A stretch of DNA of 64,000 nucleotides. Origin: Spirosoma validum. Its GTDB lineage: Bacteria > Bacteroidota > Bacteroidia > Cytophagales > Spirosomataceae. The notes under the pieces were generated by a model. That model was not told the DNA's origin. It ran no database searches and saw nothing but the letters and a program-made list of their open reading frames with translations. Positions 33,879 to 42,953 of the stretch are shown here, one piece after another (the stretch's first letter is position 1; each line of letters begins with the position of its first letter). The translations under genes and the position numbers were made by a program. The stretch covers positions 868,001 through 932,000 of the forward strand of contig NZ_JACXAA010000002.1 in the NCBI RefSeq assembly GCF_014699035.1, read 5' to 3'.

Positions 33879-33909
33879 TTGGTTATTACAGGAAATCAGT
33901 CTATTTTTG
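33879..33909 (+). promoter_or_regulatory. Promoter of the lasso-type precursor gene
   Basis: TTG at 33879-33881, 20-nt spacer, and TATTTTTG at 33902-33909 fit the Bacteroidota consensus. The start point would be near 33916, about 25 nt ahead of the precursor ATG. Confidence 0.65.
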
Positions 33910-33940
33910 GAGGCTTAGAAAAATCTGAAATAGACACGCC

Positions 33941-34084
33941 ATGGAAATTCATACTAAAAGCAACTGGACTCCTTCTTCCAGGAAGGTTTATCAGAAGCCC
34001 GAGTTGAAGATTTTAGGCAATATAAAGCAGTTGACACTGAAACTTGGCTCGATTAGCGATGGCATGCAGCCGCATCAGGCATAA
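33941..34084 (+). CDS. Lasso-type RiPP precursor peptide (47 residues)
   Basis: Small gene encoding 47 residues. The leader has the recognition pattern Y17-x-x-P20-x-L22-x-x-x-G26 followed by LT at residues 31-32, as in lasso peptide precursors bound by PqqD-like B1 proteins. The C-terminal part reads LKLGSISDGMQPHQA. If Thr32 is the usual penultimate leader residue, the core starts at Lys34 and Asp40 would close a 7-residue macrolactam; starting at Leu33 gives an 8-residue ring. The apparent Gly36 start would leave Asp40 at position 5, too tight. It has its own promoter and is followed by a hairpin, then by B1, kinase, nucleotidyltransferase and (convergent) cyclase genes. Core boundary is inference. 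Confidence 0.8.
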   Translation: MEIHTKSNWTPSSRKVYQKPELKILGNIKQLTLKLGSISDGMQPHQA

Positions 34085-34116
34085 TCACGTTCAGTAACAA
34101 TTTGTATCCATTAGAG

Positions 34117-34154
34117 GTCTGGCTCGTCGCAGTTATTGACGAACCGGACTTTTT
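34117..34154 (+). terminator. Hairpin with T-run between precursor and B1 gene
   Basis: 34117-34128 pairs with 34138-34149 (11 of 12 positions, including one G-T), followed by five T. It would stop part of the transcripts after the precursor, making it more abundant than the enzymes. Confidence 0.7.
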
Positions 34155-34270
34155 GCATTTATCCTCGTTAATTTTGATAGGTCGAATTCACGATGCTACT
34201 TTGCCAGAATTCTAAAATTCAGCCGTTAAATAGGAATTCGTGAATCAATTTTTAGTATACGTTTTAATCA

Positions 34271-34558
34271 ATGACTATTACACCTGCGTCTCGTATTCAA
34301 CTCGTACCGAACCAGTCCTCGTCTGTTCTGGGCAATGAAACAGTTTTATTGAATTATGAACTGGGTAATTATTATGAACTGAACGAAGTTGGCGGCTTCA
34401 TTTGGTCGCTCCTAAAAGAAAACGAAACGATATCTGCTCAGGAAATTCAGGATAAATTACTCGAAGAATTTGATGTAGAACCTTCCGTTTGCTGGCAAGA
34501 GCTGACATCGTTTCTGGACAATCTGCTACGTGAAAAACTAGTCGACGTATCCGAGTAA
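34271..34558 (+). CDS. PqqD-family RiPP recognition protein (lasso B1-like)
   Basis: The 95 residues form a PqqD-like winged-helix RiPP recognition element. Strands LNYELGNYYELNEVGGFIWSLL are the classic PqqD pattern (x-N-x-x-x-x-x-Y-x-L-N-x-x-G), followed by the helices EIQDKLLEEFDVEP and ELTSFLDNLLREKLVDV. It should bind the leader of the 47-residue precursor encoded 187 bp upstream and present it to the modifying enzymes. It is a stand-alone B1 with no fused B2 protease domain. The following gap of 116 bp to the kinase is too small for a B2 gene. Confidence 0.9.
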   Translation: MTITPASRIQLVPNQSSSVLGNETVLLNYELGNYYELNEVGGFIWSLLKENETISAQEIQDKLLEEFDVEPSVCWQELTSFLDNLLREKLVDVSE

Positions 34559-34674
34559 TGGCATGATATATCTCATTGGTTAAGAATCTAATCATCAGTA
34601 GGTTTCGAACGTAACGTCTACTTAGTAGAATTATCCCTGACGAACAGACACGTCGTCTTCGAGTCAATTTTAGA

Positions 34675-35598
34675 ATGGATCGAATCAAGCATTATTACAC
34701 AGCCTACGGGCTAACGATTGGTTCAGAGATTACGCTTAGTTATCTTAAAGAAATAGAACCGACTCAGGTTGATCTAACCATTCGACGGGGCCATTTGCCA
34801 CCATCTCCGCCCTGGCAGGAAACCAAGCTCCATCGTGCCGGATTTTACGCTCAGTTTGCTCAGGAAGGACCCGACAGAATGTGGCTAAACTGGCCTTCGC
34901 TTATGGGTTTTATGGCTACCGGGGGGAATGAATTAGTCGTGGATACGAGGATCACCGACGAAGGGCTTCTGTCGCTGTTTACGATGAGCGAAGCGTTTGG
35001 CTTGCTCTTAGTTCAGAAAGGCTATTTTTTACTGCATGGGGGCGCTATTCAGCTCAATAACAAAGGCATTGTCTTTGTGGGTGAACCAGGGGCTGGTAAA
35101 TCAACAACCGTAGCGGCTTTTGCCAATAGGGGAGTGCGAATTATGAGCGATGATCTGGTCTGTATTCGCGTAAATGAAGCGGGTAAACCAACCTTAATCC
35201 CCGCCTTTTCTCAGATTAAAATTTGGGAGAAAAGCGTCGAGGGTTTGCAGATCGCGAGAGATGGGTTAGACCAGGTTCGGGAAGGAGCCAATAAATTCTC
35301 GTGGCACGAGTCGGTTTTGTTTGAGGAAAATGCCGTTCTGCTGGAGCAGATTTTTGTCCTGACAGCTGTCAATACGTCCGAAGAAGCCATAAGCGAGGTT
35401 CCTAAGAGTCGAAGCCCTATCGAACTGCTTAGCTATTTTCCGCTTCCTGATGCCATCCTTCAGGGTAAGTCTCTCAAAGATCATTTCGAGAAAAGCGTAG
35501 CAATCGCCAGCATAACACCGCTTTACAAATTAAGCCGTCCCGCTAACTTTGTGAAACTGAATGAATTTGTCGATTACCTGATAACATCGCTTACATGA
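34675..35598 (+). CDS. HPr-kinase/phosphorylase-like kinase of the RiPP cluster
   Basis: 307 residues with a P-loop kinase core: Walker A GEPGAGKSTTVAAF near residue 137, then GVRIMSDDLVCIRV, whose Asp pair matches the HPrK catalytic and Mg sites. The N-terminal 110 residues are degenerate relative to HPrK. Homologues in lasso peptide clusters (as in paeninodin and pseudomycoidin loci) phosphorylate a serine of the precursor, typically the C-terminal one. The local precursor ends in Ala, so a Ser at 37 or 39, or another substrate, would be needed. The stop overlaps the next start (ATGA). Confidence 0.85.
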   Translation: MDRIKHYYTAYGLTIGSEITLSYLKEIEPTQVDLTIRRGHLPPSPPWQETKLHRAGFYAQFAQEGPDRMWLNWPSLMGFMATGGNELVVDTRITDEGLLSLFTMSEAFGLLLVQKGYFLLHGGAIQLNNKGIVFVGEPGAGKSTTVAAFANRGVRIMSDDLVCIRVNEAGKPTLIPAFSQIKIWEKSVEGLQIARDGLDQVREGANKFSWHESVLFEENAVLLEQIFVLTAVNTSEEAISEVPKSRSPIELLSYFPLPDAILQGKSLKDHFEKSVAIASITPLYKLSRPANFVKLNEFVDYLITSLT

Positions 35599-36767
35599 AG
35601 CCAGGTCGCTCTCCCGAAATTGTGGTGCTATTGATGGCCTGTACGGAAGACGTAACGGCCGAAAAGAAAGGGCTGTTGACTCAATTTCTAAATCAGCATC
35701 CCGTAAACTGGGATCGACTCTACGCGTTGGCAAACCGACATCGGATTGCCCCGTTTTTGTACCGTGTGCTTCAGCAAGTTCCCAACATTCCTTCCAAATT
35801 GCTGGCTGATTTACAGAACGATTGCCGGGCCATTGCGACCGATAATTTACTGAAGCTACATCATTATCGGCAGTTTGACCAGCTATTGGGTAGCGCGGGA
35901 ATCATGCACTTACCCTTAAAAGGTGTTTATCTGGCGGCAAACTGTTACCCCGACAACGGCTTACGGTCCATCGGTGATCTGGACGTACTGGTTCGAAAAG
36001 AAGACGCTTTGCCGACGGTCCATCTTTTAGAATCGCAGGGTTATCATACGAACCAGAAGCACACGCGTTACCAGCAGCATGACGAACGCAGCATGCTGGC
36101 CGATCTACACGAAATAAGCCTCTTCAAGCCATTTTTCAACAACAGTCATTTTGATGTTGATCTGCACTGGGGGGTTATTTGCCTGAATAAAGATTATAAA
36201 ATATTTGATCTGGACGAGATACAGGCCCAACCCGCTCTGGTTACTGAATGGCAGATTATTCTGTTGGTCACGCACCACGGTGGTACGAACATCTGGCAGC
36301 TTATCTATTTCGTGAATGATCTTTATTTCTTGTTGAAAGGAAAAACAATCGACTGGTCGTGGCTGATGCAGGAACTACGTCGATACGGTCTTGAAACGAT
36401 CTTTTTAGCAGGATTACACTGGTGTCAGCAGATCTGGTATTTACCACTGCCCCCATCGGTTCAGCAGCTAATCCGGATGGAAAAGGTGCAGGGACTTATA
36501 GACGCTTACGAAAAAAACTGGGAAGGGGCTGAGACGGTTGCGTTGAGTAAATTGATCATGGACCAGGTAACCTTTTTTGCAAAAGCTCAGACGCAGACTG
36601 GTCGACAGGTGAAAATAGGACTTACTTTTTTCAGCAGCCGCGTATTTCGGGCCGCTACGTTTAAAGTAGGGCATCGCCTTTTTTATGTTCCCAAAGAACT
36701 GGGCTTTATTACTGTTTTCGTACGGGCGGTTCGCTCGCTCTATCGTTTCCTACCAACTCATCGGTGA
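35595..36767 (+). CDS. Nucleotidyltransferase-family protein of the RiPP cluster
   Basis: 390 residues; the central part has LPLKGVYLA, RSIGDLDVLVRKED near residues 130-145, a nucleotidyltransferase-fold GD-x-D motif, and DVDLHWGV as a further acidic strand. It fits the NTP_transf_5 family that occurs in lasso peptide and related RiPP loci (known from pseudomycoidin-type clusters). Its role is probably tailoring with the kinase, as the two genes overlap by 4 bp and are thus translationally coupled. It ends 1 bp before the stop of the convergent cyclase gene. Confidence 0.85.
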   Translation: MKPGRSPEIVVLLMACTEDVTAEKKGLLTQFLNQHPVNWDRLYALANRHRIAPFLYRVLQQVPNIPSKLLADLQNDCRAIATDNLLKLHHYRQFDQLLGSAGIMHLPLKGVYLAANCYPDNGLRSIGDLDVLVRKEDALPTVHLLESQGYHTNQKHTRYQQHDERSMLADLHEISLFKPFFNNSHFDVDLHWGVICLNKDYKIFDLDEIQAQPALVTEWQIILLVTHHGGTNIWQLIYFVNDLYFLLKGKTIDWSWLMQELRRYGLETIFLAGLHWCQQIWYLPLPPSVQQLIRMEKVQGLIDAYEKNWEGAETVALSKLIMDQVTFFAKAQTQTGRQVKIGLTFFSSRVFRAATFKVGHRLFYVPKELGFITVFVRAVRSLYRFLPTHR

Positions 36768-36768
36768 G

Positions 36769-38721
36769 TTAACTCGGTTTTTCGAGCGAACCGAGCCAGA
36801 GCGAGAGGTAAATAATCCGGCTTAATAACCAGTTATAGCGCGTTTTTCGGCTGGAAGGAAAGCGGGGATTGCTGACAATAGCGACAATTTTCGAGAAAGT
36901 ACGCCGGTCAATTATTTCCCAGATGGGGTGGCTGGCAGCTGAAAATTGATCGTGGGTCGCTTCATAGAGTTGTAGCGCAGCTAACGTACCATATTCAACA
37001 AAGTTGGCTTTCGTGAAGCGAGATAAAAGGGCTGACGGCAGAACGTTGCGCAGCCCATGCCGGATCAGTCCGCGACCGCGTCCTTCATAAAAACGGACAG
37101 ACATCGGGGTCGCCAAGCCGAGTTCTACTACGTTCTTGTCGAAAAAAGGATACGAATACGTATGACCGTAGTATTCACCAATGTGATTCATCTGCTCATT
37201 ACAGATGACATTCGTATTGTTGAGAATTTCTTCAACAGCCACGTGATTTTCTGCAGACAATGACTTGACAAGCTGTTCGGTCGATTGCTGCGGCCTGAGC
37301 GGAACTTCCCGCTTAAAGTCTTCGCTCAGCGCATTATCAATCGTCGTCTGCTGATTAAACTTCACCTTGATCCGCTGATAAACGTAGGCCATGATCGCCG
37401 ATTCGGAAAGCCCAAACCGTTTTTTATGATCGAGCATCTGGGTGATAAAAGCCGGGAGCGGCTGTTTTCTAAACTGTTTTTTTAAATGGCTACCAATAAC
37501 CGACAAAACATACTTCTCATATTTAGCCTGGTCTGTTAACTGCGGCCAACGGTCACTAAGGGTATAAATGTTACGTTCGCGTGGGGCAAGAAATTGCCGA
37601 CTGGCCTGTTCAAACTCATCCCACTGTTCGGTACTAATTAGCTGATCCAGAAATTCGAAACCGGTCGTAATCACACTGTCGCCGTCGTGGCCCGTCAGCA
37701 GAATATCGCAGCCAAGTTCCTGCGCTTTAAGCGAAACGCTTAGATGAAAGCTGGACGGGATAATGAATTGCTCAGGACGATCGAAGAGATGATGTATGTT
37801 CAGAACGGAATCCAGTACGTCGTTTACCGGGTGGACTCGGTGGTGAATGGGATGCCATTGATCAACTACCGCCTGTACATAAGCCTGTTCCTCCGCTAAT
37901 GCCTGTTCCGTATCGATGTTGAAGGTGTGTAGCGTCGGGCGACGCTGTTGAATCAACAGTGACTGGGCGACACAACTGACCGAGGAGGAATCTAATCCCC
38001 CACTTAAATGGGAACCTACCAACTTCTTTCCACGCATCCGACTGTCAATCGCTACTGTAAATTGGTCGTGGAATAGGGCTGAATAATCGTCAATGCCGTG
38101 AAGCCCCTTGAACTTAGTAAAATCGAGTTGCCAGTAGGCGTGTTCAGTTACTGTTTTTGAGTTTACCTGTAGGTAATGACCGGGTAATACGCTGTAAATG
38201 GTTTCGTGAAAAGTCTCTGCACTGTAATGAACGTAAACAGTTGGCCAGGTAAGGTATTCCCTGAATTTATGTTTATTAGGTTTGACCGCAACTTCATGAA
38301 GTACGGTCAGTGCCTTTATTTCAGAGGCAAAGGCAAAAAAACGGTTGGGCTGGTGAACGTAGTACAGCGGTTTTGTCCCCATTGCATCGCGGGCGCAATA
38401 AAGCGTCTGCTGGTGAGCGTCCCAGAGCGCTACCGCGAAATCAGCATTCAGGTTGTTGAACGACGTAGCGCCCGTCTGAAGATAACCCGACGTAAAAGGC
38501 TGCTCGGTAAACATAGCCGAAAAAACATCCGCGTCGACGGTCGCAAAAACAGGAGCATTCGGATGGCTTTCAATCGTTCCACCAAAAGCGATGAACAAAC
38601 CGTTGTCAATTGACTGACTCAGTACGTTACCCCGATGTTTTAGTAGCCTGATTATATTAGTCGAATCGGTTGAATCTACAGCCTGTCCATCGAATCGAAT
38701 CATTCCAGCGATTCCGCCCAT
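36769..38721 (-). CDS. Asparagine-synthetase-like lasso cyclase (C protein)
   Basis: 650 residues. The N-terminal Ntn-like amidotransferase domain starts MGGIAGMIRFDG; the catalytic Cys2 of true glutamine amidotransferases is replaced by Gly, so glutamine cannot be used. The synthetase domain has the PP-loop SHLSGGLDSSSVSC near residue 240 for ATP binding and DILLTGHDGDSVITTGFEFL downstream. Lasso C enzymes activate an Asp/Glu side chain as AMP ester and let the core N-terminus attack it. It is convergent with the precursor operon, with one base between the stops. Ordinary asparagine synthetase is unlikely because of the lost Cys2 and the neighbours. Confidence 0.85.
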   Translation of the reverse strand: MGGIAGMIRFDGQAVDSTDSTNIIRLLKHRGNVLSQSIDNGLFIAFGGTIESHPNAPVFATVDADVFSAMFTEQPFTSGYLQTGATSFNNLNADFAVALWDAHQQTLYCARDAMGTKPLYYVHQPNRFFAFASEIKALTVLHEVAVKPNKHKFREYLTWPTVYVHYSAETFHETIYSVLPGHYLQVNSKTVTEHAYWQLDFTKFKGLHGIDDYSALFHDQFTVAIDSRMRGKKLVGSHLSGGLDSSSVSCVAQSLLIQQRRPTLHTFNIDTEQALAEEQAYVQAVVDQWHPIHHRVHPVNDVLDSVLNIHHLFDRPEQFIIPSSFHLSVSLKAQELGCDILLTGHDGDSVITTGFEFLDQLISTEQWDEFEQASRQFLAPRERNIYTLSDRWPQLTDQAKYEKYVLSVIGSHLKKQFRKQPLPAFITQMLDHKKRFGLSESAIMAYVYQRIKVKFNQQTTIDNALSEDFKREVPLRPQQSTEQLVKSLSAENHVAVEEILNNTNVICNEQMNHIGEYYGHTYSYPFFDKNVVELGLATPMSVRFYEGRGRGLIRHGLRNVLPSALLSRFTKANFVEYGTLAALQLYEATHDQFSAASHPIWEIIDRRTFSKIVAIVSNPRFPSSRKTRYNWLLSRIIYLSLWLGSLEKPS

Positions 38722-38894: not shown

Positions 38895-39599
38895 ATGCTT
38901 AGAAAAAATTATGTCTATAAGGCCATAGTCTATCTGCTTTTAGTAGGCGTTGGTGTCAGTTGCCAGACAAATAACCTTGATCCTACCAACATCGATTCGA
39001 ACTACTTTCCGTTGGAAATCGGCGATTATTGGATTTACCAGGTAACGCAGGAAAATTATGCTGCCGCGAACTCCGCGAAAAAGAGCGTTTTTCAATTGCA
39101 GCAAAAAATCAGTAGTTCTTATACACAGAATGGTCAGTTATTGTACCTGATCGAAGAATCCGTTAAACGATCGGAACAGGCTGGATGGCAGCTCAATGCG
39201 ATCCGTACGGTGTACAAAAACCTCAAGGAAGTCGTTAGTCTGGAACACAACGTGCCCATTGTGCGCATGGTTTTTCCTATCAATACGACGACCTCCTGGA
39301 ATGTTAATGAATACAACGCTAACGCTGATACGTTGCTTCGATATCAGGATGCCGGAAAAACGTTTGCCGTTAGTAAACTTAATTTCGACCGTACCGTTTC
39401 GGTCTTCGGGGCCGATGACTCAACATTGGTCAATCAGGAACGATATCGCCGGGTTTATGCCCAGAATGTTGGCTTAGTATACAGTGAGAATGTATCCCTG
39501 GCCTATTGCCAATCGTCGGCCGCTTGCATCGGTAAAGCCATTATTGAATCTGGTACAAAACAGAAATGGGAATTACTTTCGACTAATCGTTTGCCGTAA
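38895..39599 (+). CDS. Lipoprotein of unknown function
   Basis: 234 residues with a signal peptide II; lipobox VGVSC with Cys at about residue 23. The mature part starts with a Asn/Asp-rich linker and then has FPLEIGDYWIYQV, a stretch seen in several uncharacterised Bacteroidota lipoproteins, followed by a mostly beta region. It diverges from the cyclase gene, but a shared role with the RiPP cluster is not supported. The downstream hairpin at 39614-39678 separates it from the convergent C25 protein gene. Confidence 0.8.
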   Translation: MLRKNYVYKAIVYLLLVGVGVSCQTNNLDPTNIDSNYFPLEIGDYWIYQVTQENYAAANSAKKSVFQLQQKISSSYTQNGQLLYLIEESVKRSEQAGWQLNAIRTVYKNLKEVVSLEHNVPIVRMVFPINTTTSWNVNEYNANADTLLRYQDAGKTFAVSKLNFDRTVSVFGADDSTLVNQERYRRVYAQNVGLVYSENVSLAYCQSSAACIGKAIIESGTKQKWELLSTNRLP

Positions 39600-39695: not shown

Positions 39696-42600
39696 TTACC
39701 GCTGCCAGATAATTTTTCCGCGATACGTTTCCGTACGGCCTTCTTTCCAGGTTAATCGCAGCGAGTAGATATACATACCGGGGGCTCCTCCCTGCCACAG
39801 AAACGAATTTTTGCCTGGATTAGCCGGGAACGCATCATCATAAACCTGAGCGCCCGACAAGCTATAAATTGTTAACCGGGAGTCGATAGGATAGTCCTGC
39901 GTGTTCAACATCAGGTCAAAGTTTGCGTATGACGTAGCCGGATTCGGGTTGACCTGAAATGTAATCACTTCTTCTTTCCCGGCTACAGTCAAATCCAGGA
40001 CGTAAGGCGGCTGTGTCTGGTTGCCAGCAGCATCTTTCCCGAAAACAATGAGCTGATACGTACTACCAGCTTGCAGAGCGAGATTCGTCGTTACCAACAA
40101 CTGATTTTCAGAAACGGCTGATACAGACAGGGCCTTCGAGGAAATTTTTTGTGGAGCACAGGTTGCACATGTTTTCAGATACACGTCAATAGCCGTGGTA
40201 TCTTTCGCCGAAAGCGCGTTCTGATCCAGCAGATAAATTTCTACGCGCGGATTGGTATTCACGACGGCCTGGTTTTCCCGAACAACCCCATTGACAAACA
40301 CATTGATTGCCGGAGCCACTACGTCGGGCAACGCGTTGGCCGGATAGCTGCTCCCCTGTATCTGACTCCAGTCAATAGCCAGCGTGGCCGTGTTGTTCTT
40401 TTTGTCTAGTTCAACAATCTGGTTATCAGGATCGATAATCACCTCTAATTTCTGCAGATTAGCCTCTCTGGGAATTGTATAGACCAATGTATCCCGATAA
40501 CGGAATGAGGTAAAACGTAGCGGGAAGCTAGTAGTAGTGCCACCGTTTGTCTTTTTTAGTGATACGGCTACAGATTGCCCAGATACGTATTTGCCAATAT
40601 TGGCCAGCGGCATGACAATCCGGATGGAATCACCACCTTTGATCGAACCACCGCCTATGTTCGACTTAATATAAATACCTTTCTGGGCGAATGAAAAATC
40701 AGGATTCGGTAGCGGATATAGGCTTACAGCCGGATCGCCCTGCAAAACCATTTCCAGCATGACCGACGACTCGTAGGGGCCAATCGTTTCTTTTTCAAGA
40801 GCCTGATTCAATTGCTGTTGAACTTGCCCGAAAGGCATTCCGAGGGTGGCTGCGTTTGTGAACAGAGTAGAATAAAGTCGTGAAAGATACCACGTTGTTG
40901 ATTGCTCATAACTGTAATAGGAGTGAGCCAATACGAGACCCGCTCCTTTCTGAGGGGCCAGTAACCAATCCGTCGAGAGTGTATTGTATTTAGAAAAAAT
41001 TTCGCCTACTCCGCAGCCATTGAAGACCATAAGTGGATAATTCGTATTCCGAAAACCGTTTTCTACGGGGGAGGCAAACCCGAAATTCATGTCAGTAATT
41101 GAAGGACCGGCATGACCAAAAAAGGTAATCATGCTTACCCCATCGTTCACTATAGGAGCGATGTTGATCTTTTCAACTTCCTGAACGAACTGACTTTTGC
41201 TGAACGTACTGATTTGACCACCTAACTGTCCATTATTGAAGATGGCCCCAAAGCTATCCATTGCTGAACGGAGGCTCTGCGCTTCAGGTTGCGTCTTCCC
41301 CCCGCTGATATGAATGAGGTGCTTCCGCCAGATTCCGTTCGCCGTTGCCGATTCCATCTGTTTGACTTTGTCCAGATAGGCAATCACCTGATCATTAGTA
41401 ACCACATTGAGTCGGCCGATCGGGATAGCTGGCGTGTTGATTGTATAATTACCCAGGCCTGCTGTCAGCAAGAGATCGGAACCAGGATATCCCACGGTAG
41501 GCACTAAATCATCTTTGGTCGTTTTAACCGTATATGGATAGCTATTGGCACGCCCAATTAGCAGCAGATGTTTAATGCCTGTATTTGCTCGCATGTAGTC
41601 GGCAAACCGACGTAGTGCCAGCGGACTTCTCTCGCCATAGTTAAACTGATCGAAGAGCGAATCTGTCTCCGTAATAAACGGCGTGTAATGGCCTCCCTGG
41701 TCCGATGCCCGGTACGTTGCATACGTAGCGGCCGACTGGCGGAGGGATGCGTGGGTAATAATGGCATAATCGATCGCTTTTGGAAACGAAGCCGTAAAAT
41801 GCGGGATCTGTATGGACAGCAGTTTCGCTGTTTGGTTTGTAATAAAAATAGTTCGGTTACGATCGACTGCATTTACAACAACCTGCGCCTGGCCGTTGCC
41901 CCCCTGAACGGTTAAATATCGGCAATTCGCTTTATCCGTAATATCATAGGCGACAGAACCTGTAGGCGCATTCTGGATCGCCATCAGAGCTTGTTGACTC
42001 GCATTGGGCAGCACATGGAATACCTTGGTTGTTAGCCCGGCCATATCCAGCGCCTGCGGGTACGAAAGCTTTACGTATGAAATGGAATAATTGTTGGTCA
42101 GCGTATTTCGGATTGCTTTGAAGTTTACCGTAAGCTGCTCGTTTAAAAGCGTACTTGGATTAACGGTGGTCTGGAATGTCGGCGCTGCATAACCCGTAAA
42201 CGCCAGCGTAGTTAATGGCGTAGTCGCCGAATTTAACAGCACCTCTACCTGGTGGTAGGCGTTATCGCGACCATTGATCATGCCCGACAACGTAATGGGC
42301 CAGTCGTTCGTTACGCGCCCCGCCAATTTTAGCTGAACAACGCCAAGCGAATCCTGCGTAAGCAACGTACCAGACCAACCTTCGCCTGGCTCGAAATAAC
42401 TCTGCTGAATGAAGGGCTCTGTATTGATAAGATTATTGAAGGTCCACTCACTGGTAAATGCCCGTACGGTTTCTTCGACGTGGAATTTCTCCGGCGTAAG
42501 GCCTTGAGCTGAGTTGTTCAGCTCCGGCATCCGTTTTCCGGCTGTTGCGGGGGCGCTCGTTAAAAAATAAGCTGTTACGTCGGTATATAGCGTTTGGTAA

Positions 42601-42953
42601 GGATGAGGCCGCTTCTGAGGACGGTAAAGCAGCGTATCCTGACTACCATCATTACCTTCTCCGTAAAATTCTACGTAATCCTGCGCGTCGAAAACCCCGT
42701 CTTTCTCACCCACGACCCGAATGGCCATTTCCTTTCCTCTGAAAAACAGTTGCCAGCTTGTTGGATTTGTCTGGACGAACGACGGATCGACAGTTTTAAT
42801 ATCCTGATAACTTACCCGATAAACACCCGTCTGATTTACCGAAAACTTTAGGTACTTCTGACCAGGACGAATCCATTCGTTGCCGAACTGATTTTGCGCG
42901 TTTACCGTCAGAGCACCGACCAAACACCAGATTAATAGTAACCCATGCTTCAT
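39696..42953 (-). CDS. Gingipain-type (C25) PorU-like protein with type IX secretion C-terminal domain
   Basis: 1085 residues. Signal peptide ending VNAQ, then beta-rich N-terminal domains, a C25 peptidase-like domain with His in MITFFGHAGPS (around residue 620) and Cys in LMVFNGCGVGEIF (around residue 650), the His-Cys pair of gingipains and of PorU, the type IX secretion sortase. After immunoglobulin-like domains the last 85 residues form a type A sorting domain (FQVNPNPATSYANFDL ... IYSLSGAQVYDDAF ... MYIYSLRLTWKEG). It therefore resembles putative sortase PorU2 proteins of Cytophagales. It stands alone with a terminator. Confidence 0.88.
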   Translation of the reverse strand: MKHGLLLIWCLVGALTVNAQNQFGNEWIRPGQKYLKFSVNQTGVYRVSYQDIKTVDPSFVQTNPTSWQLFFRGKEMAIRVVGEKDGVFDAQDYVEFYGEGNDGSQDTLLYRPQKRPHPYQTLYTDVTAYFLTSAPATAGKRMPELNNSAQGLTPEKFHVEETVRAFTSEWTFNNLINTEPFIQQSYFEPGEGWSGTLLTQDSLGVVQLKLAGRVTNDWPITLSGMINGRDNAYHQVEVLLNSATTPLTTLAFTGYAAPTFQTTVNPSTLLNEQLTVNFKAIRNTLTNNYSISYVKLSYPQALDMAGLTTKVFHVLPNASQQALMAIQNAPTGSVAYDITDKANCRYLTVQGGNGQAQVVVNAVDRNRTIFITNQTAKLLSIQIPHFTASFPKAIDYAIITHASLRQSAATYATYRASDQGGHYTPFITETDSLFDQFNYGERSPLALRRFADYMRANTGIKHLLLIGRANSYPYTVKTTKDDLVPTVGYPGSDLLLTAGLGNYTINTPAIPIGRLNVVTNDQVIAYLDKVKQMESATANGIWRKHLIHISGGKTQPEAQSLRSAMDSFGAIFNNGQLGGQISTFSKSQFVQEVEKINIAPIVNDGVSMITFFGHAGPSITDMNFGFASPVENGFRNTNYPLMVFNGCGVGEIFSKYNTLSTDWLLAPQKGAGLVLAHSYYSYEQSTTWYLSRLYSTLFTNAATLGMPFGQVQQQLNQALEKETIGPYESSVMLEMVLQGDPAVSLYPLPNPDFSFAQKGIYIKSNIGGGSIKGGDSIRIVMPLANIGKYVSGQSVAVSLKKTNGGTTTSFPLRFTSFRYRDTLVYTIPREANLQKLEVIIDPDNQIVELDKKNNTATLAIDWSQIQGSSYPANALPDVVAPAINVFVNGVVRENQAVVNTNPRVEIYLLDQNALSAKDTTAIDVYLKTCATCAPQKISSKALSVSAVSENQLLVTTNLALQAGSTYQLIVFGKDAAGNQTQPPYVLDLTVAGKEEVITFQVNPNPATSYANFDLMLNTQDYPIDSRLTIYSLSGAQVYDDAFPANPGKNSFLWQGGAPGMYIYSLRLTWKEGRTETYRGKIIWQR

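Follow-up and report, generated by a model that had tools for sequence, protein, structure and literature searches.

The 64-kb window analysed here (G000:C22:868001-932000) lies in the genome of Spirosoma validum, an 8.2-Mb assembly of 39 contigs that is 100% complete. It carries a lasso-peptide-type gene cluster (33941-38721) in which A1, B1, K and N lie in this order on the plus strand and the convergent C1 on the minus strand. These names stand for the precursor, a PqqD-type recognition element (RRE) for ribosomally synthesized and post-translationally modified peptides (RiPPs), a kinase, a nucleotidyltransferase and the cyclase; A2 and C2 denote the precursor and cyclase of a second locus, and B2 is the leader peptidase. 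The cluster contains the following features:

33941..34084, plus strand: A1, precursor of 47 aa recognised from its open reading frame (ORF) and leader register (Y-17, P-14, L-12, G-8, T-2), with predicted core KLGSISDGMQPHQA
34271..34558, plus strand: B1, PqqD-type RRE (PF05402, 4.5e-18, 65.8 bits against a cut-off of 23.4)
34627..34674, plus strand: putative 3'-terminal remnant of a deleted B2 gene, truncated, spread over two frames and abutting the kinase start upstream (anchored gapped alignment)
34675..35598, plus strand: K, HprK-like kinase with the P-loop GEPGAGKS (PF07475 Hpr_kinase_C, 4.7e-6)
35595..36767, plus strand: N, nucleotidyltransferase of the NTP_transf_5 type (PF14907, 1.4e-39)
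36769..38721, minus strand: C1, asparagine-synthetase-like lasso cyclase, convergent to the operon (PF00733 Asn_synthase, 7.1e-31, over the cut-off)

An earlier note on this DNA had proposed a 47-codon precursor with a lasso-like leader, a PqqD-like B1, an HPrK-like kinase, a nucleotidyltransferase and a convergent cyclase. The last four were all recovered by profile search and the precursor ORF is real, while the start at 33879 given for it belongs to an overlapping TTG frame. In A1, residues Y17, P20, L22 and T32 precede a predicted core beginning at residue 34, which gives the YxxPxL motif and the Thr at -2 of lasso leaders. The match is not due to chance, because the register Y-17, P-14, L-12, T-2 is identical to the published one (PMC10368454) and recurs in relatives. 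The lasso leader model NF033521 scored 13.6 bits on A1, under its cut-off of 19. B1 matched NF033536 (lasso_PqqD_Bac) at 1.7e-19 and 69.7 bits, under the cut-off of 80, and its best matches in the PDB were lasso-named B1 proteins (9x90_B at 8.1e-13 and TbiB1 at 1.3e-7). K remained under both profile cut-offs (PF07475, 26.7 bits against 33.3; TIGR04352, 1.9e-11).

No B2 was found in the 64-kb window by three B2 profiles run in six frames with filters off (best E 0.022), while B2 of the second locus (L002) was matched at 4.5e-25 to 2.3e-72. These scans exclude a hidden or fused B2 in the window and extend to its whole length the earlier observation that the gaps and neighbouring genes hold none. 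The genome-wide PF13471 search that the earlier note had called for detected a single B2 at C22:279663-279998 (8.5e-18), on the same contig and 622 kb from A1, which bears out the suggestion that B2 is encoded elsewhere. This B2 is over the curated lasso-B2 cut-off (NF033537, 80.8 bits against 33), and its PDB search gave nothing at E 1. A2 and C2 adjoin it in divergent orientation, A2 having the leader YITPQL...EIT and the predicted core GEGSLNYDEGSLVQDLE. A hidden B1 at the second locus was considered and rejected, since no B1 was detected there; the window B1 is the only PqqD match in the genome at an E threshold of 0.001. The window locus has no B2 and the second locus no B1: the two are complementary halves.

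To place this arrangement in the genus, 36 Spirosoma genomes were searched for B2, B1 and C, and 40 stretches were mapped, the same-genus clusters being located through C1. The window-type cluster occurs in 26 of them, leaving out G027 (a fragmented assembly that shows the end of a cyclase but no B2) and G020 (another cluster type). B2 lies inside the operon beside B1 in 17 of the 26, in the order A-B1-B2 and then, if there, K and N, with C facing these genes; six of these 17 intact clusters gave no K. The cluster is without B2 in the other nine (G000, G001, G003, G006, G008, G015, G022, G023 and G033). All nine genomes, and only those, hold a full-length B2 elsewhere, of a lineage here called beta, as opposed to the alpha lineage found in the operon. 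The two kinds are mutually exclusive, none of the 26 genomes having both and none having neither. The chance of such a perfect split is 4.9e-7 for 25 genomes (16 alpha and 9 beta), uncorrected for kinship; the in-operon B2 of G012 is on an unresolved branch of the B2 tree. In G000, G001, G008, G023 and G033 the two loci share a contig, so that their split does not stem from the assembly.

In 35 of the 36 genomes, B1 and B2 occur together or are jointly missing; eight of these genomes have neither a PqqD nor a B2 match. The lone exception is G027 (80% complete, 1030 contigs), with PqqD and no B2. Among 117 genomes drawn from the order, ten hold B2 (11 genes), and a PqqD match lies within 3 kb of nine of the 11; the exceptions are the window genome and one genome without a PqqD match. 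Further, unlike B2s belong to other cluster types in G004, G005 and G023.

A trace of the lost gene was sought upstream of K, a place where, if K has its usual register, the B2 of an intact cluster ends in overlap with the K start. For each of the six clusters lacking B2 only, the 60 bases before K were aligned, with the K start as anchor, to the B2 ends of ten intact loci. The gapped profile comprised eight of the 17 same-genus intact loci, Fibrisoma and one Runella; it excluded G009, G021 and G035, with a kinase start in another register, and the six clusters without kinase. The scores were 31.6 for the window, 45.4 for G003, 26.0 for G008, 42.2 for G023 and 22.8 for G033, against maxima of 10.4, 16.9, 11.0, 15.9 and 7.7, respectively, over 600 shuffles each, and ten control sites scored at most 2.5. 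The remnant was thus detected in five of the six clusters, that is, in four of the five sister genomes besides the window, and chance similarity was ruled out by the shuffles and control sites. In G003 it reads VILGEQTTSLVEPILEWN-stop, nearly the end of an intact B2, while the window stretch spans two frames. An ungapped test with a profile of seven intact loci was weaker: of 20000 shuffles, 109 equalled the window, 11 were as good for G033, 1 for G008, 0 for G003, 0 for G023 and 6054 for G006. From the remnant alignment, the window cluster most likely once had its own B2. A complete B2 in related strains, which the earlier note had named as a refuting observation, occurs in this place in 17 of the 26 clusters, and the window keeps the remnant; the pathway is therefore not of a kind that works independently of B2, and the local B2 was lost.

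In a tree of 38 B2s, the nine Spirosoma beta-B2s form a single clade (100/97), which joins the B2s of seven loci from Runella, Arundinibacter, Persicitalea, Rhabdobacter and Dyadobacter (100/100), apart from the alpha-B2s. Mapped on an RpoB and RpoC species tree of the 25 genomes with one state or the other (no RpoC was obtained from G025), the alpha/beta state requires three changes, at least two of them forced by well-supported branches; bootstrap trees also gave 3 (5%-95% range 3-3). When seven cluster-less genomes were added, the beta label required four changes, at least three of them forced; the 25-genome count is preferred. G006, a beta genome, is placed beside alpha genomes, and G017, inside the beta group, has neither a B1 nor a B2 match and only a weaker cyclase match.

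Two patterns of split were found. Only B2 is gone from the cluster in G000, G003, G006, G008, G023 and G033. In G001 and G015, and in G022 as far as seen (its contig ends just past N, with the gene beside N out of view), B1, B2 and K are all gone from the cluster and a B1-B2 pair is present at another locus. As judged from shared flanking genes, this locus corresponds in position to the one that holds beta-B2, without B1, in G003, G008, G023 and G033. A second precursor with a K-x-G-S-x-x-D core lies near the beta locus in five of these seven genomes (G001, G003, G015, G022 and G033), and none was matched there in G008 and G023. The precursor of S. telluris (G033) was matched only at the beta-B2 locus and none in its main cluster, so that one locus would hold precursor and B2, and the other B1, K, N and C. 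The pattern is suggestive of complementary loss between two loci. Several proteins flanking the main cluster of relatives have paralogues at the beta locus, namely the LTD/nuclease and sorting-tail proteins and, in part, the lipoprotein (33% identity) and C25 peptidase; because of these, the locus may be an old duplicate of the main cluster setting.

Taken together, these features make it probable that the leader peptidase acts in trans in S. validum, the window B1 working with an unlinked B2 after loss of the local one. The distant B2 probably serves both loci; as the genome has one of each, B1 and B2 must be common to both, provided that the pathways function. In the proposed mechanism, B1 of the window cluster would bind the A1 leader, B2 from the locus 622 kb away would work with it and cut after the residue following T-2, and C1 would close the ring, most probably by joining Lys1 to Asp7. 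Tailoring would fall to K and N, with the conserved Ser4 as a candidate site. The same single B1 and B2 would also serve A2 and C2. The original alpha-lineage B2, between B1 and K, would have been deleted while the distantly related beta-B2 was present elsewhere. A dependence of this kind is known from paeninodin, where PadeB2 activity depends on PadeB1 (PMC5067487). From the comparative data we infer that the B1 of an alpha cluster works with a beta-B2 and that both precursors are processed, as well as the order of events and the product chemistry. To a fuller statement we would give somewhat less than an even chance: that two unlinked lasso systems, each unable to mature its peptide alone, share a chimeric B1/B2 peptidase; that this evolved more than once in Spirosoma by complementary loss; and that the product is an uncharacterised lasso peptide with a seven-residue Lys1-Asp7 ring.

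Several points weigh against sharing in trans. The B2 of the window genome is only 29-34% identical to the six alpha-B2s compared, so that its pairing with an alpha-cluster B1 is not assured. The exclusion statistic is weakened by kinship between the genomes, a third cluster of G023 contains its additional, unlike B2, and more PqqD matches occur in G001, G015, G022, G023 and G033. C1 is under the curated lasso-cyclase cut-off (NF033535, its best NCBIfam match, 2.2e-93, 314 bits against 525), a cut-off reached by no match in the 36 Spirosoma genomes. No precursor was matched in five of the 26 clusters (G002, G009, G012, G022 at its contig end, and G033), and the Lys1 at the ring start differs from the commonly reported first residues Gly, Ala, Ser and Cys. 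The remnant is absent from G006 (gapped score 1.0, no better than shuffles), and G031 keeps an alpha-B2 though placed among beta genomes, for which transfer or regain may be needed. The selection estimates count in favour of sharing but are limited: wherever dS was finite, dN/dS lay at 0.04-0.20 for B1, beta-B2, C1 and K and for the B1 from genomes with a B1-B2 pair (G006 pairs being omitted for beta-B2 and C1), with dS above 1 in other pairs and hence rough, while dS of the window C1 and K and of the B2 of the same genome was saturated in every pair, giving no ratio (pN/pS 0.27-0.44). The window B1 gave 0.07-0.17 (four of five pairs giving a ratio) and the precursor 0.10-0.44 (four genomes, four of six pairs giving a ratio). 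Our assessment was left unchanged when the forced switches fell from three to two, because mutual exclusion and the remnant carry the case.

The remnant that records the loss of B2 could also mean that the window cluster is decaying, with no peptide made since that loss and B1 kept only for A2, C2 and B2; A2 and C2 need B1 in any case. The unusual tail of the A1 core and the saturated dS of the window C1 and K are compatible with decay. However, A1, C1, K and N of the window are all full-length, C1 and K of the other split genomes have dN/dS of 0.05-0.14 where dS is finite, and in G003, G008 and G033 the cluster C1 is the only NF033535 match at 1e-30, which makes it indispensable there if any lasso peptide is made. 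Decay is thus unlikely. Leader removal might instead be independent of B2, with a host protease cutting or the cyclase acting without B2 cleavage; to judge from the title of Zyubko et al. 2019, pseudomycoidin reportedly forms in vivo without leader and leader peptidase. All nine genomes without a local B2 nevertheless keep a full-length one elsewhere, with Cys87 and His119 invariant in 15 aligned B2s (nine beta and six alpha), the eight genomes without PqqD are also without B2, and PqqD without B2 occurs in one fragmentary assembly only. We regard this explanation as very improbable. The earlier note had left three options, and while a B2 encoded elsewhere is supported, the data can be explained without a host protease; as to a product differing from a normal lasso peptide, it is possibly unusual in its first residue.

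The RRE, kinase and NTP-transferase are common to lasso clusters and clusters for linear polyphosphorylated peptides (LPPs) (PMC13381572), so that an LPP-like system with another peptidase and the cyclase as an unrelated neighbour might also be envisaged. It is scarcely credible in view of the cyclase itself, found within 4 kb of N or B2 in 26 of 26 clusters (partly by construction, the clusters being located via C1), of the B2 inside the operon in 17 of them and of the T-2 and Asp7 of the precursors. LPP systems are marked by an SpI-like leader peptidase and have no macrolactam cyclase; no signal peptidase was matched among the seven window proteins scanned.

A shared peptidase acting in trans can be compared with described lasso systems. 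The paeninodin, pseudomycoidin and bsf clusters, which belong to phosphorylated or glycosylated lasso peptides, resemble the window cluster in A, C, a discrete B1, an HPr-kinase homologue and a nucleotidyltransferase, and in the YxxPxL leader (-17 to -12) and residue -2 as recognition site (PMC8498205, PMC10368454). They have a discrete B2 in the cluster, whereas the B2 for the window cluster is unlinked; the window core starts with a predicted Lys1 and has no C-terminal Ser, and no ABC transporter was found among the larger ORFs scanned (27.6-44.6 kb of the window). In citrulassins, a deiminase encoded outside the cluster acts in trans, as would the distant B2, but the remote enzyme there is a tailoring enzyme and here the core leader protease (PMC12971885). 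Lasso genes outside a cluster are thus already known. A second case is a split lasso operon that, by its 2026 title, reportedly does not have all lasso genes in one operon; what the window cluster lacks is the protease, of whose lost gene a remnant persists, and the two loci complement each other. No account of a lasso B2 acting in trans was found in the literature searched, the coverage of which was partial. Xanthomonins have a seven-residue ring with Gly at position 1; they share the ring size predicted here, with Lys in place of Gly.

Lasso genome mining commonly seeks A, B and C side by side, and clusters such as this one would look incomplete despite a full genomic set. If shared as proposed, the peptidase would be a natural test of B1/B2 exchangeability between lineages. 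The intact cluster, the B2 remnant, complementary loss and separate cassettes would form an evolutionary series in which a RiPP pathway disperses without being lost. For Bacilli, a recent study reports that the evolution of recognition elements served to separate two such pathways (PMC13381572); here, in contrast, the two would have no choice but to share.

A predicted product family is suggested by the conserved K1-x-G-S-x-x-D7 cores. A strict leader pattern run over all loci collected gave 50 distinct matches, 41 of them with K1-x-G3-S4-x-x-D7 cores of 13-17 residues; the other nine were two A2-type precursors, five other lasso-like precursors and two evident chance matches. Of the 26 Spirosoma clusters, 21 gave a match to a K-type precursor whose leader is spaced as in A1. 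The window core has K1, G3, S4 and the acceptor D7, which is within the Asp/Glu range of 7-9 of lasso peptides, and the tail GMQPHQA, unlike the commoner GFG. If the usual cleavage register applies, this suggests a family of Lys-initiated lasso peptides with a seven-residue ring from Lys1 to Asp7. The calculated [M+H]+ of the window core less one water is 1450.711, or 1530.677 when one phosphate is added, and that of the A2 core less one water is 1806.803. Asn (PMC12670498) and, in citrulassins, Leu (PMC12971885) have been reported as first residues, and Lys at this position was not encountered in the literature searched, as far as its text was available. A C-terminal Ser as kinase target, the arrangement of paeninodin-type phosphorylated lasso peptides, was rejected, as the window core ends in Ala and Ser is the last residue in only four of the 41 K-type cores. 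Ser4 is not there for the kinase alone, since it is kept in six intact clusters without K.

Precursors in two copies with the same core were observed at L012 (9460-9609 and 11160-11363), L021 and L098, with sorting-tail proteins adjoining in L012 and L021, which suggests local amplification. L037 (G016), a cluster without K and N, has two different K-x-G-S-x-x-D precursors, one on either side of B1-B2 and C. Stand-alone pairs of precursor and B1 occur at L014 6197-6683 (G009) and L041 5696-6181 (G021), each genome having a full B1-B2-K-N-C cluster elsewhere. The B1 of the G009 cluster itself (L013 9586-9906) reached 34 bits only, on a very long branch and with no precursor matched there, as if it were decaying. 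In G030, a stand-alone precursor and cyclase of the A2/C2 type (L026 6279-8378) are separated by about 257 kb from a complete cluster that includes B1 and B2; this is likely another in-trans user of a shared B1/B2.

In the wider family, named genomes scanned with the C1 alignment yielded 29 loci. At L085, L093, L098, L099, L102, L103, L104, L106 and L107, precursor and cyclase stand alone, the 10 kb to either side holding no B1, B2, K or N; L105 has the same solitary layout, with a less sure precursor. Twelve genomes searched whole had a B2 match in 11 and a PqqD match in all 12, and 12 stretches around these matches were inspected in seven genomes. Arundinibacter, Persicitalea and Dyadobacter have a B1-B2-K-N cassette with no cyclase or recognised precursor within about 6-9.5 kb; a second B1-B2-K set of Arundinibacter has a cyclase about 6 kb away. 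Runella zeae has B2-K-N on one contig and B1 on another. These Spirosomataceae cassettes keep processing and tailoring genes apart from precursor and cyclase, and in the B2 tree they join the beta-B2s (100/100). Three of the four have B1 and B2 side by side, unlike the window genome; Runella zeae also splits them. Precursor, B1, B2 and cyclase are all present at the Runella loci L138, L140, L142 and L143, and L139 has B1 alone. At L141 (Runella sp. CRIBMP, G036), C, precursor, B1 and kinase occur without a local B2, the B2 of that genome being in another cluster, L140.

A promoter scan of the window with a sigma-70 model gave 4 sites against 7.5 expected; this model is unsuited to the phylum of the window genome. 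Terminator-like sites numbered 13 against 5.6 expected. The setting of the cluster is conserved and includes two neighbours that flank C1 in relatives, many of which also have the sorting-tail and LTD/nuclease proteins:

38895..39599, plus strand: predicted lipoprotein, conserved neighbour (no Pfam match)
39696..42953, minus strand: C25 peptidase with a CARDB domain, conserved neighbour (PF01364, 9.9e-62)

The paralogue of this lipoprotein in S. arboris (G003), at 33% identity, flanks the precursor of the second type.

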